Part shown: piece after piece, positions 41,932 through 55,442 of the stretch
How the letters are laid out: each line of letters begins with the position of its first letter
How positions within the stretch are numbered: position 1 is the first letter of the stretch
From: a virus
IMG/VR virus record: IMGVR_UViG_3300021197_001596
Location: 1-64,000 of that record
Direction: 5' to 3' (one strand)
Length of the DNA stretch: 64,000 nt
Notes under the pieces: model-generated
Told to the model about the DNA's origin: nothing
What the model saw: only the letters and a program-made list of their open reading frames with translations
The model's database searches: none
Program-made: the position numbers and the translations under genes

Positions 41932-42188
41932 AAGACCGCAATTACATCTTGCTCTTTAATTACGTAAAATAATTTATCATCAAATTCAATGCCATACCCG
42001 GCGTGCTTATCAAAGTATATTTCCGTTTCGGGAGTTAAACCTTCAATAAGATTTCCAACTGATATTACTTTTGCTTTTTGATACCTTATATCATTTTGAT
42101 GTTGTTCAGTTAAAATTAAACCGCCTTTGTTCGTTTTAATTTCTTCTTTAATTTTTTCAATTATTATATATCTATTGACTGCTTTCAT
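41928..42188 (-). CDS. groES: Phage GroES co-chaperonin
   Basis: 86 residues from MKAVNRYIIIEKIKEE; the longer frame start lies inside the GroEL gene and adds only basic residues, whereas this ATG overlaps the GroEL stop as ATGA. Features of Cpn10: mobile loop with hydrophobic triplet (KGGLILTEQHQND, LIL), AKVISVGNL, IYFDKHAGYGIEFDDKLFYVIKEQDVIAVL at the C-terminus. It caps the GroEL ring during folding. Its order, after groEL, is the reverse of most bacterial operons. Confidence 0.92.
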   Translation of the reverse strand: MKAVNRYIIIEKIKEEIKTNKGGLILTEQHQNDIRYQKAKVISVGNLIEGLTPETEIYFDKHAGYGIEFDDKLFYVIKEQDVIAVL

Positions 42189-43735
42189 TGTTCTCTTACG
42201 TTTGAAATTACACAATCAGCAGACATAATAGTTGTTGCAACTGAAGCCGCATTTTTTAAAGCTGTTTTTGTAACAAGCACCGGATCAATAATTCCAGCAG
42301 AAATCATTCTTACTTGTTTACCTGTAACTACGTCAATACCCTTTCCTTTAGTCATTTTTTCGGGAATCTTAATCCCTCCATTTTCAAGGATTTTATTAAA
42401 GGGTGCTTTGATAGAATCAACGAGTATTTTTTCTCCAGGGCAGGAAGGCTTAATACTAGTAGCAGCGTTGATAAGAGCAACACCAGCTCCAGGGACAATA
42501 CCTTCTTTAAGCGCAGCTTTAACCGCATAAATTGCATCTTCAACACGATCTTTCTTTTCTTTTAATTCAACTTTACTATTAGCGCCTACATAAATAACTC
42601 CTACAGATCCAGAAAGCATTGCTTTTCTGTCTTGTAGCTTTTTAAGCAAATAAGGATTTTTTTCTTCTTTTATTTGCTTTTGAATTATATTTATTCTTTC
42701 TTCTGTTTCTTTATTTATATTGCTAGTAGTTATAATCGTGTCTTTTTCATCAGTAACAACTTTAACTGCTTCTCCTAAAACTGACGCATCTATAAGATCT
42801 AAGTCATCTCCTAAGTCTTCATTAATAACTTGTGCTCCAGTAACAACAGCTAAATCTTCTAGCATTTCTCTTCTTAAATTTGAAAAACCAGGAGGATCAA
42901 TAACATTTACCTTTATATTGCCTTTTGCTTTATTCATTATTAAAGCTGATAAAGGTTGTTGGCCTACAGATCCAACAATAAGTATTGCTCTGTTATTTTT
43001 TATAGCGTATTCAAGTACCGATTGGATTTTACGGATCGTTTCAATTTCCGTGTCCACAAGTAAAACCAAGGGACTATCAAGAATAACTTTATTTTTTTCC
43101 TTATCAGTAATGAAGTATTGAGACTTAATTCCCGAATCAAATTTAACGCCATCAACTATTTCTGTATAAGTTTTATCATCTTCTGATTCTTCCATTAAAA
43201 CAACACCATCTTTTCCAACTTTTTCATAAGCACCAGCTATAATGTTTCCTAATTCATAATCATTATTTGTTGATATATTAGCTACATGCGTAAGCATCTC
43301 GTCTTTTACCGGAATTGCTTCTTTATCTAAATACTTAATTACTTTTTTAACAGCATTATTTATGCCGTTTTTTATGCTTCTTAAGTTTGTTAAATTACTA
43401 TTATTGTAATTGCTAAGAATGGAGTGAGCGAGGACAGTAGACGTAGTCGTACCATCCCCGGCTTCTTTAACTGTTTTCTGAGCTGCCTCTTTAATGAGGG
43501 TTGCACCGATATTTTCGGCAGGATCCATAAGGATTACGCTATTTGCAACAGTTACTCCGTCTTTTGTTATTATTGGACGGCCAGTGCCATCTTCATATAT
43601 AACACATTTTCCTGAGGCCCCAAGGGTAGAGGAAACCGCTTTGTTAAGTTTGTCTACCCCGGCCATAATTTTACTTTTAGCGTCTTTGCCAAAATTTAAA
43701 TTTTTGACAATTTCGCTAGGATGATTAAATTCCAT
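42185..43735 (-). CDS. groEL: Phage GroEL chaperonin
   Basis: 516 residues (bacterial GroEL about 548). Diagnostic motifs are intact: TKDGVTVA (Asp59 region), GDGTTTSTVLA (93-103), NLRREMLEDLAVVTGAQVI in the apical domain, KEKKDRVEDAIYA with the ATP-hydrolysis aspartate, and GIVPGAGVALI. The C-terminal GGM-rich tail of bacterial GroEL is absent; the protein ends ...SADCVISNVREQ. It should fold phage proteins in an ATP-driven ring with the phage GroES encoded next. It lies among fibre genes, suggesting a late role in folding large adhesins or capsid. Confidence 0.95.
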   Translation of the reverse strand: MEFNHPSEIVKNLNFGKDAKSKIMAGVDKLNKAVSSTLGASGKCVIYEDGTGRPIITKDGVTVANSVILMDPAENIGATLIKEAAQKTVKEAGDGTTTSTVLAHSILSNYNNSNLTNLRSIKNGINNAVKKVIKYLDKEAIPVKDEMLTHVANISTNNDYELGNIIAGAYEKVGKDGVVLMEESEDDKTYTEIVDGVKFDSGIKSQYFITDKEKNKVILDSPLVLLVDTEIETIRKIQSVLEYAIKNNRAILIVGSVGQQPLSALIMNKAKGNIKVNVIDPPGFSNLRREMLEDLAVVTGAQVINEDLGDDLDLIDASVLGEAVKVVTDEKDTIITTSNINKETEERINIIQKQIKEEKNPYLLKKLQDRKAMLSGSVGVIYVGANSKVELKEKKDRVEDAIYAVKAALKEGIVPGAGVALINAATSIKPSCPGEKILVDSIKAPFNKILENGGIKIPEKMTKGKGIDVVTGKQVRMISAGIIDPVLVTKTALKNAASVATTIMSADCVISNVREQ

Positions 43736-51592: not shown

Positions 51593-51622
51593 ACTTTTTT
51601 TCAAACAGTGTGTGTTTGTTGT

Positions 51623-51679
51623 AAGACCAAAAAACCGTCGTACCTCTGCAGGGGTAAATAAAACCGGCGGTGAGGTCTT
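51623..51679 (+). ncRNA. Three-tier hairpin, possible riboswitch or structured RNA
   Basis: Outer stem AAGACC/GGTCTT (6 bp), an internal loop (AAAAAA opposite TGA), middle stem CCGTCG/CGGCGG (6 bp with one wobble), then a one-base versus nine-base asymmetry, and inner stem ACCTC/GGGGT (5 bp, one wobble) closed by TGCA. Nested stems with A-rich internal loops resemble structured regulatory RNAs, but I cannot match a known class. Confidence 0.55.
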
Positions 51680-51757
51680 TACATTCACAATAATACGGAT
51701 TTTCTTGTGTGTATTCAATTTTCATGCACAAAAATGCCAAATAAAATATTAAGAGCG

Positions 51758-51821
51758 CCGAAGGATTGCTGACGAGCGATATATACTAGTTATAAATGCA
51801 GGTAATGAGCTGCGCCTTCGG
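51758..51821 (+). repeat. CCGAAGG/CCTTCGG inverted repeat
   Basis: Seven perfect complementary bases (eight with one G:T) whose arms are 50 bases apart and flank an AT-rich stretch with TATATACTAGTTATAA. It ends 4 bases before the tRNA-like domain, and the two could form one RNA. Confidence 0.5.
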
Positions 51822-51825
51822 TCAT

Positions 51826-51904
51826 GGGCGTGACGGGTAAGTGCTGACAAAGTTCTAAAGTACACTATCAGCAAACGGAGGTTCGACTCCTCCCGCGTCC
51901 ACTA
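51826..51904 (+). ncRNA. tRNA-like domain lacking a normal anticodon arm
   Basis: Length 75 plus a 3' flank. Acceptor arms GGGCGTG (51826-51832) and CGCGTCC (51894-51900) pair over 7 bp with G3:U70 and a T6:G67 wobble. The T arm, GGAGG-TTCGACT-CCTCC (51877-51893), has the exact T-loop consensus TTCRANY and abuts the 3' acceptor strand as in a tRNA. Discriminator A73 (51901) is followed by CTA, not CCA. Instead of D and anticodon arms there is a 10-base single strand and one 5-bp stem GCTGA/TCAGC with a 20-base loop. G3:U70 and A73 are alanine identity elements, as in tmRNA. It may be a tRNA-like/tmRNA-like mimic or a decayed tRNA. Confidence 0.6.
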
Positions 51905-51921
51905 AATAAAATTAAATTAAT

Positions 51922-52083
51922 ATGAAAACTAAACTAAAACAAACAATAAATAATCAATTTAGGGTCCTATGGTCATACAATAAAGGGCTCAGAGGGGGTT
52001 ACGAAGATTTTAACACTGAAGCGCAAGCTGAGAATTTTAGAAAATTTATAATAAAAAATTGGAAAACTTATGGAAAAACCTAA
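51922..52083 (+). CDS. Early small basic protein, unknown
   Basis: 53 residues (MKTKLKQTINNQFRVLWSYN, then RGGYEDFNTEAQAENFRKF), basic at both ends. First gene after the non-coding island. It overlaps the next gene by 14 bases. Unrecognised. Confidence 0.5.
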   Translation: MKTKLKQTINNQFRVLWSYNKGLRGGYEDFNTEAQAENFRKFIIKNWKTYGKT

Positions 52084-54094: not shown

Positions 54095-54712
54095 ATGTCG
54101 CATAGAAAACTCGAGTATTTTAATCGAAGACGTATCGTATATCGACGCGATCCAATAACTGATACCCCTTCTGAAACATTTAGTTGGGGTAACTTTTATG
54201 AGAATGGTACGTATGAATGCTACCAACTATTTAGATCAAAGGCAAAAATTACATCATATAGATCCTTTAAATGGCATGTACTTGTTCTCTGGTATTTAAA
54301 TAAAAGTCTTACTTATGATGATATTTTAGAATTAACTTGCTATCTTGCTGATAAGGATAATGGTTTTGTAACTATAAAGCTTAATGACACAAGCATAATC
54401 AATTTAGTTGATGAAGTGTTTGAAAAAGATTTAGATAAACCACCTAAAAACAAAATACGTAAGATTATATTTAAAGATAGTTCAGGATTAACGACAACTG
54501 AAAAATTAAAAATTGTAGGCAGTATAATTGGTAGAAAGAAAAAAGCAGAGGCACCGGATATATATGAGGCAATGCTGGGCATACACGACAATAATAAAAA
54601 AATAACCATATCAAAAATTGCAAGCTTATTAAACGTTTCAACTAGAACAATTTATAGAAATATAACTTCGGAAATTAAGCAAGAAAAAATGTTATTAAAT
54701 GAAGAAGTATAA
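54095..54712 (+). CDS. HTH DNA-binding regulator
   Basis: 205 residues. N-terminus RKLEYFNRRRIVYRRDPITD and a WGNFYENG segment; the C-terminus has a clear helix-turn-helix (ITISKIASLLNVSTRTIYRNI, about 168-188) plus charged tail. The C-terminal HTH resembles that of homeodomain-like or Mga-type regulators. I recall this layout in marine phage early regions. The stop overlaps the sigma factor start (14 bases), so they are co-translated and may act together. It is likely to control the early-to-late switch; target unknown. Confidence 0.7.
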   Translation: MSHRKLEYFNRRRIVYRRDPITDTPSETFSWGNFYENGTYECYQLFRSKAKITSYRSFKWHVLVLWYLNKSLTYDDILELTCYLADKDNGFVTIKLNDTSIINLVDEVFEKDLDKPPKNKIRKIIFKDSSGLTTTEKLKIVGSIIGRKKKAEAPDIYEAMLGIHDNNKKITISKIASLLNVSTRTIYRNITSEIKQEKMLLNEEV

Positions 54713-55442
54713 CATACAAAATTATGTTAGGTTTAAACATGACTTAGCAAGTTATGGCGACATCCCTGACACAGGAGACGGCAGGCAAGATTTAATTATA
54801 TCTCATATGAGTTTAGTTGAAACAATAGCACGTAAATTTTCTACCTCACAGCAGGCATCAGGAGTTATGACTATAAATGATTTAATTCAAGAAGGAGCTA
54901 TTGGTTTAATAGCAGCAGTAGATAAAATTGATTGGAACCAAATAACAGACTCTACTGAACCTCAACGCACACTTAATAGTTTTTTAAGTAAACGCATTAA
55001 AGGTGCAATAAGAAGGGCTATTGATATAAACAGAGGTAACATACGTATACCTGAGCATAAATTAAATGATATGCGTAAAAATTGTGAAGCTGAAAAGAAA
55101 ACTGTTGAAATGTTTTTTAATAGTATTTTTTATTCTTTAGATGAAACAGATAATGAAAACAATACATTTTATGAAATAGCAGATAATTCAAAAGACTACA
55201 ACATTGATATAATGAATAAATATTTGTTATCAATAATGGAATCTAATTTAAGCATTAAAGAATATGATGTACTGCGAATGAGTTATGGCTTAGACTGTGA
55301 TAAAATGTCCGCTAAAGAAATAGCCGACAAATTGGCAATAAAAGGTACAGCATCATACGTAAGAATATCGCAAATAAAAAGGGACGCAATAAATAAGTTA
55401 ATCGAGAGTGTAAGTCCAGCTCAAGTTATTGATTTTCTGTAA
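54699..55442 (+). CDS. Phage-encoded sigma-70-family factor
   Basis: 247 residues. Region 2: LIISHMSLVETIARKFS and MTINDLIQEGAIGLIAAVDKIDW (core-binding and -10 recognition); region 3-like RNGNIRIPEHKL; region 4: YDVLRMSYGLDCDKMSAKEI then SYVRISQIKRDAINKL (HTH for -35). Region 1 is absent, as in alternative sigma factors. It would redirect host RNA polymerase, most likely to phage late or middle promoters. Encoded with the HTH protein in one overlap. No phage RNA polymerase was seen in the window, so this sigma is the only visible transcription engine. Confidence 0.9.
   Translation: MKKYNIQNYVRFKHDLASYGDIPDTGDGRQDLIISHMSLVETIARKFSTSQQASGVMTINDLIQEGAIGLIAAVDKIDWNQITDSTEPQRTLNSFLSKRIKGAIRRAIDINRGNIRIPEHKLNDMRKNCEAEKKTVEMFFNSIFYSLDETDNENNTFYEIADNSKDYNIDIMNKYLLSIMESNLSIKEYDVLRMSYGLDCDKMSAKEIADKLAIKGTASYVRISQIKRDAINKLIESVSPAQVIDFL

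Follow-up and report, generated by a model that had tools for sequence, protein, structure and literature searches.

What kind of RNA a phage encodes at 51826-51904, and to what use it could be put, is the question raised by this locus, which lies in the window (the whole 64-kb stretch of DNA analysed, itself within a 65.5-kb viral record). The element carries a tRNA-like acceptor and T-arm, and neither its sequence nor its fold contains a D-stem or an anticodon arm.

Sequence and fold of the element

From its 5' end the element reads GGGCGTG (positions 1-7), ACGGGTAAGT, GCTGA-CAAAGTTCTAAAGTACACTA-TCAGC, AAAC, GGAGG-TTCGACT-CCTCC, CGCGTCC (66-72), A73 and CTA. Its parts are listed below with the evidence for each.

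51826..51832, + strand: 5' acceptor strand, positions 1-7, with the G3 of G3:U70 (sequence, MFE, covariation over 24 distinct cores)
51833..51842, + strand: D-loop-like strand with A8 and GG, without D-stem (102 homologues, Bacteroidota tmRNA layout)
51843..51872, + strand: body module, stem GCTGA/TCAGC with a 20-nt loop (stem covaries, loop kept in 8 relatives)
51873..51876, + strand: linker AAAC, family consensus TAAC/AAAC, C48-like (a C precedes the T-arm in 94/102 homologues)
51877..51893, + strand: T-arm (sequence, covariation)
51894..51901, + strand: 3' acceptor strand with U70, and discriminator A73 (sequence, family)
51902..51904, + strand: 3' trailer CTA, CCA not encoded (the tRNA genes of these phages have the same trailer)

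All seven acceptor pairs form, with G-U at 3:70, and the T-arm is perfect. The MFE structure is exactly the fold described, at -25 kcal/mol with a z of -2.0, and 6 of 200 shuffled sequences folded equally well. Sequence and MFE are thus in agreement with the first-pass annotation as regards a 7-bp acceptor with G3:U70, a perfect T-arm with a TTCGACT loop, and A73. The tRNA-like register proposed there also holds, with the length corrected from 75 nt to the 76 nt that the mature element would have (51826-51901), and the D and anticodon arms are indeed replaced by a strand and a stem-loop, the stem having 6 bp in the MFE structure and not 5 bp as first given.

Homologues and covariation

About 180 related viral loci were gathered by DNA patterns and by the primase, for which the closest cultured counterpart is that of Cellulophaga phage phi10:1 (43% identity). 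Applied to 1.4 Mb of primase-fetched loci, a detector combining T-arm, pairing acceptor and early GG returned 27 full elements, as against 0 in the same DNA reversed, which excludes an origin by chance. Where such loci extend at least 8 kb upstream, 19 of the 23 that bear a tRNA-like domain (TLD) have one with G3:U70 and A73. Related phage contigs yielded 102 distinct homologues of the window family, a set that is partly pattern-selected (U70 and A73 were fixed by the search pattern for many homologues and CTA for most, with G3 left free) and in which counts take shared descent as it is.

Kept across the homologues are the 7-bp acceptor, A8, a GG without D-stem and the T-arm. A8 is found in 100/102, and in 102/102 a GG lies no more than 7 nt from the acceptor, at an offset of 2-6. 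A73 is present in 102/102, a count partly set by the search pattern; CTA follows base 73 in 104/105, although the pattern fixed CTA for most of these. The tRNA-Met of these phages ends in ACTA. At position 3:70 we observed G3:U70 in 97 of the 102 homologues and A3-U70 in five, and this split is informative because the pattern did not fix G3, with shared descent remaining in the count. Pairs 4:69 and 6:67 switch to other Watson-Crick pairs while G3:U70 is kept.

Joining acceptor and T-arm with the body removed gave 24 distinct cores with 100% standard pairs, a figure that is partly circular, pairing having been a criterion in the choice of candidates. No such circularity affects the kinds of change: six pairs, or 26 cells, changed on both sides, and 0 of 500 shuffles scored as high in covariation. 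The acceptor is present in the MFE folds of 102/102 homologues and both arms in 97. Among the eight closest homologues each of the three helices is intact, and two of these helices show two-sided changes, in one T-arm pair and three internal-stem pairs; the internal stem occurs as GCTGA/TCAGC, GTTGA/TCAAC, GCAAA/TTTGC and GCGAA/TTCGC, and the loop CAAAGTTC..GTACACTA is nearly unchanged. The first-pass annotation had named loss of the pairing or of G3:U70 in relatives as evidence against its reading; what we find is pairing with compensatory changes, and G3:U70 in 97 of 102 relatives. One of its suggestions, a decayed tRNA, is not supported, since more than 100 homologues have been kept with such changes.

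The cultured phage collection gave short T-arm matches only and no cultured relative with the family, and the annotation of 33 kb of phi10:1 (the annotation, not the detector, being the basis here) lists only tRNA-Tyr and tRNA-Phe. A scan of genome contigs returned a few MAG contigs assigned to unrelated taxa, which have the appearance of phage DNA swept into the bins, so that no host can be named from them.

A tmRNA-type domain without message

In the 64-kb window ARAGORN reported neither tRNA nor tmRNA, and Rfam at gathering cut-offs gave zero matches. In a lax search of 381 bases of this DNA the tmRNA model RF00023 was the sole good match, to 51826-51904 with 26.5 bits and E 4.6e-9, in an alignment that spans model positions 1-374 with the middle absent. 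Ordinary tRNAs reach 15-40 bits on RF00023, so that 26.5 bits cannot alone separate tmRNA from tRNA; with tRNA-Ala at 40 bits, this score was rejected as proof of tmRNA origin. Against the cut-off of 47 bits, relatives score 32-43 bits and one copy 65 bits, the latter being a 77-nt element without message domain (L021:2668-2747) whose D-loop, ATTGGTTTTGACA, resembles that of Bacteroidota tmRNA. This D-loop and the cultured relatives lead us to guess that the host belongs to the Bacteroidota.

Transfer RNAs have U8 and a D-stem. The 27 Bacteroidota tmRNAs compared have A8 in 26/27, the GG at an offset of 3-5, G3:U70 and A73 in 27/27, and an encoded CCA in 3/27. Because the layout of the phage elements matches these tmRNAs and the L021 copy passes the RF00023 cut-off, the window family is, judged by its sequences, a tmRNA-type TLD without message and not a decayed tRNA, which upholds the earlier comparison to the tRNA-like domain of tmRNA minus its coding part. 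A tRNA assignment of the window element was rejected on the silence of ARAGORN, the missing D and anticodon arms and the A8 of the homologues. A permuted two-piece tmRNA (RF04321), in which the 3' half lies upstream of the 5' half, was likewise rejected, as the 5' acceptor strand here lies upstream of the T-arm and the score was 9.9 bits only. Nor is the family tmRNA by definition, because the 102 bodies contain no tag frame (0 tag-like endings of the ALAA type; the window body has 44 nt) and leave no space for pseudoknots, the pseudoknot ring and the long P2 being absent from elements of 44-175 nt in total. In one relative, ARAGORN calls the TLD at L019:2069-2165 a 97-nt tRNA-Gln(ctg), which is likely a miscall.

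A hypervariable body and further families

It is the part between D-loop and T-arm that varies and gives the elements their range of length. A helix of 6 bp or more closes the body in 67% of cases, compared with 20% of shuffled bodies. For 50/100 bodies a similar copy exists outside any TLD, and for 74/100 in the TLD of another phage; two loci (L055 and L061) share a near-identical body on differing acceptors and T-arms. The loop of the window element recurs as a free hairpin, GTAGTTA-loop-TAACTAC, in four relatives (L100, L141, L170, L176). At the other extreme are minimal elements without body, of 44 nt to base 73 in L050 and of 41-47 nt elsewhere. It is clear from the modular bodies that recombination carries pieces of structured RNA across contexts that differ greatly.

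The same phages carry other anticodon-less TLD families, whose acceptors are unrelated and whose position 73 may hold any base. Such families without alanine identity weaken a purely alanine-based reading and make a function independent of charging possible. Neither they nor the hypervariable modular middle could have been foreseen by the first-pass annotation.

Several variants were noted in their own right. A paralogue with AGGCGTG..CACGCCT and U73, in which alanine identity is lost, occurs at L079:3306, in L177 (with CACGTCT) and in L183, and phages with this paralogue also retain a GGGCGTG..CACGTCCA copy. Minimal 47-nt elements of the form GAGCATA-CTACGGTACTAAGG.-T-arm-TATGCTC, or with GAACATG/CATGTTC, are found in L089 (712-), L131, L134, L145 and L179; in these acceptor/T-arm elements the D and anticodon arms are wholly absent. 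Elements of 41 nt, TGTCACA-ATGGTTAAT-T-arm-CGTGACA, with covarying acceptors, are found in L120, L128, L144, L155 and L179.

Genomic position and neighbouring structured RNAs

The following features surround the element:

51615..51683, + strand: element C, candidate structured RNA with AAGACC..GGTCTT around ACCGTCG..CGGCGGT and an ACCTC hairpin (read from the sequence)
51757..51823, + strand: element A, three-way junction CCGAAGG/CCTTCGG with loops TGACGA and GTAATGAG (7-sequence consensus fold)
51921..52082, + strand: next ORF, about 54 aa, beginning 19 nt past A73 (read from the sequence)

The TLD lies on the strand of its neighbouring genes. By mechanical, uncurated ORF calls, the distance from base 73 to the next start is mostly 13-22 nt, or else 2 nt (ACTATG; CTATG in 12/105), and many elements begin only 0-10 nt past a stop codon. 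In the stretch 5-8 kb upstream of the primase, TLD and tRNA-Met seldom occur together: a locus carries one or the other, and across phages the gene that follows the two is the same. Tandem TLD-tRNA or TLD-TLD arrays with gaps of 2-6 nt occur in L111, L178, L046 and L174, a spacing that, by analogy, resembles that of co-transcribed tRNAs. The window contains one canonical T-arm only, and most phage gene junctions are without a TLD.

Element A shows three pairs changed on both sides in seven sequences (window, L002, L003, L005, L008, L011, L189), with the loop TGACGA invariant and the TACTAGTTA linker near-invariant; it adjoins the TLD in L002, L003, L004, L008 and L189 too. Element C lies in the same noncoding stretch as the TLD and has similar copies in L003, L008 and L009. 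No Rfam match was obtained for either. Arrays of other recurrent structured modules upstream of the TLD were also seen in L024, L026, L030, L033, L045, L048, L061, L065 and L075, examples being GACGAGTAGCTTAATTAGGT..ACATAAGTGAATTGC, CATACTGGTCACGTTAG..TACCAGTCC and TGTATGTGRTGCCGAMTATCGACGG; they are nested mutually at hairpin ends and had no Rfam match in the loci scanned. A PHROG scan of the window further gave a phage GroEL homologue (42185-43735, - strand, E 5e-136) and a sigma-factor-like protein (54699-55442, + strand, E 1.7e-21).

Possible functions

Our leading, still tentative reading, with somewhat less than an even chance of being right, is that of a tagless tmRNA mimic: a phage TLD in which a hypervariable hairpin body stands in for the lost mRNA-like and pseudoknot domains, and whose effect would be to dampen or redirect trans-translation in the host. 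From the observed fold, conservation and TLD type we infer how processing, charging and binding could proceed. The TLD would be co-transcribed with the early genes on either side. Its RNA would then be cut out by RNase P and RNase Z of the host, a maturation by tRNA enzymes suggested by the tandem arrays and the position, and CCA would have to be added since none is encoded. AlaRS would charge the product with alanine, as G3:U70 and A73 lead one to expect, and the elbow (GG of the D-loop, and T-loop) would bind EF-Tu and SmpB, so that the RNA either vies with the tmRNA of the host or gains access to stalled ribosomes while offering no tag template. The intact elbow makes these contacts plausible, and a lone TLD fragment has been crystallised with SmpB (PMC3985003); in tmRNA the third pair is always G-U and the deformed D-arm contacts SmpB (PMC3985003). 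None of 20 phage records encodes an SmpB, so that host SmpB would be needed. Against a mimic stand the five A3-U70 copies and the paralogues without alanine identity, the hypervariable modular body, for which a plain mimic has no need, and the window's own tmRNA score, which falls inside the tRNA range.

That the TLDs serve mainly as host RNase P/RNase Z cut sites in long phage transcripts, as in tRNA punctuation, is also possible, if improbable on balance. Cleavage would release the mRNA that follows, its leader being short or almost lacking, as well as adjacent structured RNAs; body and alanine identity would be incidental leftovers. The tight placement between genes with starts so soon after base 73, the use of one spot by TLD or tRNA-Met, the body-less 41-47 nt versions and the tandem arrays all point this way, and since position and architecture are the same in families lacking alanine identity, this explanation comes close behind the mimic. 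It leaves unexplained why G3:U70 and A8 are so largely kept while nearby pairs drift, and why most junctions have no TLD and the window has a single canonical T-arm. The bodies themselves are best accounted for by a third proposal, unlikely as the main function, in which a stable tRNA-shaped frame shows interchangeable, rapidly replaced modules (aptamer, decoy or kissing loop) to host factors such as defence proteins. It draws on the body copies within and outside TLDs, the free hairpins, the near-identical bodies on different acceptors and the excess of closing helices; the modules could, however, have inserted selfishly or neutrally at a site that tolerates them. The three models are not mutually exclusive.

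A remnant of a tmRNA or tRNA in decay within the phage genome would fit the loss of message domain and D-stem and a body unconstrained in sequence; it is very improbable, being largely refuted by the covariation of intact acceptors and T-arms in more than 100 homologues and by the loop conserved among the window's close relatives. Many phages integrate at the 3' ends of tRNA or tmRNA genes, and an attachment site or tRNA-gene remnant of such integration was considered. It appears the least credible of all, with both acceptor strands present and covarying and a tyrosine integrase not found in the viral record. Returning to the mimic, it is tempting to speculate, though we regard this as doubtful, that the phages possess an RNA class of their own, built on a frame that derives from tmRNA, accepts alanine and presents structured modules open to exchange, a fast-evolving arsenal against host ribosome rescue or defence. 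It is similarly doubtful that the modules of such an arsenal pass from phage to phage and from one kind of frame to another (TLDs, free hairpins, junctions).

Relation to known systems

With bacterial tmRNA (ssrA, RF00023) the phage element shares the 7-bp acceptor, G3:U70, A73, A8, the early GG without D-stem, the T-arm, and a helix after the D-loop in the place of P2. It differs in its length (about 360-400 nt in tmRNA), in having no tag frame and no space for four pseudoknots, in its hypervariable modular body and in being a phage gene. To our knowledge, a message-less tmRNA-type domain has been described from mitochondria only, and we know of no modular bodies in these mitochondrial RNAs. 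Jakobid mitochondrial tmRNAs are reported to lack the mRNA-like region, and tmRNA is reported from oomycete mitochondria as well (cited in PMC7050145). Compared at the level of the TLD only, little beyond the TLD remains there too, whereas those RNAs belong to organelles, and the species concerned have a nuclear SmpB. Phage-encoded tmRNAs, e.g. that of phage Melnitz, occur in 2.3% of surveyed phage genomes; they too are tmRNA-type phage genes, but are reported as complete, in one or two pieces (PMC9004378). Mitochondrial tRNA punctuation is similar in that tRNA-shaped elements lie directly between genes and leave short leaders after cleavage, and differs from the phage TLDs, which have no anticodon arm, would be processed in a bacterium, and for which processing is a proposal. 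Our literature search, of incomplete coverage, found no report of anticodon-less phage tRNA-like RNAs or of a phage TLD family.

Overall, our data suggest that marine phages related to Flavobacteria phages carry an RNA family so far unrecognised, one that standard annotation overlooks, ARAGORN being silent in the window and calling a tRNA-Gln in one relative. This family may tap or block the ribosome-rescue or tRNA-processing machinery of the host. A widespread phage version would offer bacterial systems for studying the role of a TLD without a tag, and for asking whether phages attack or exploit trans-translation and whether tRNA-shaped elements cut phage transcripts.
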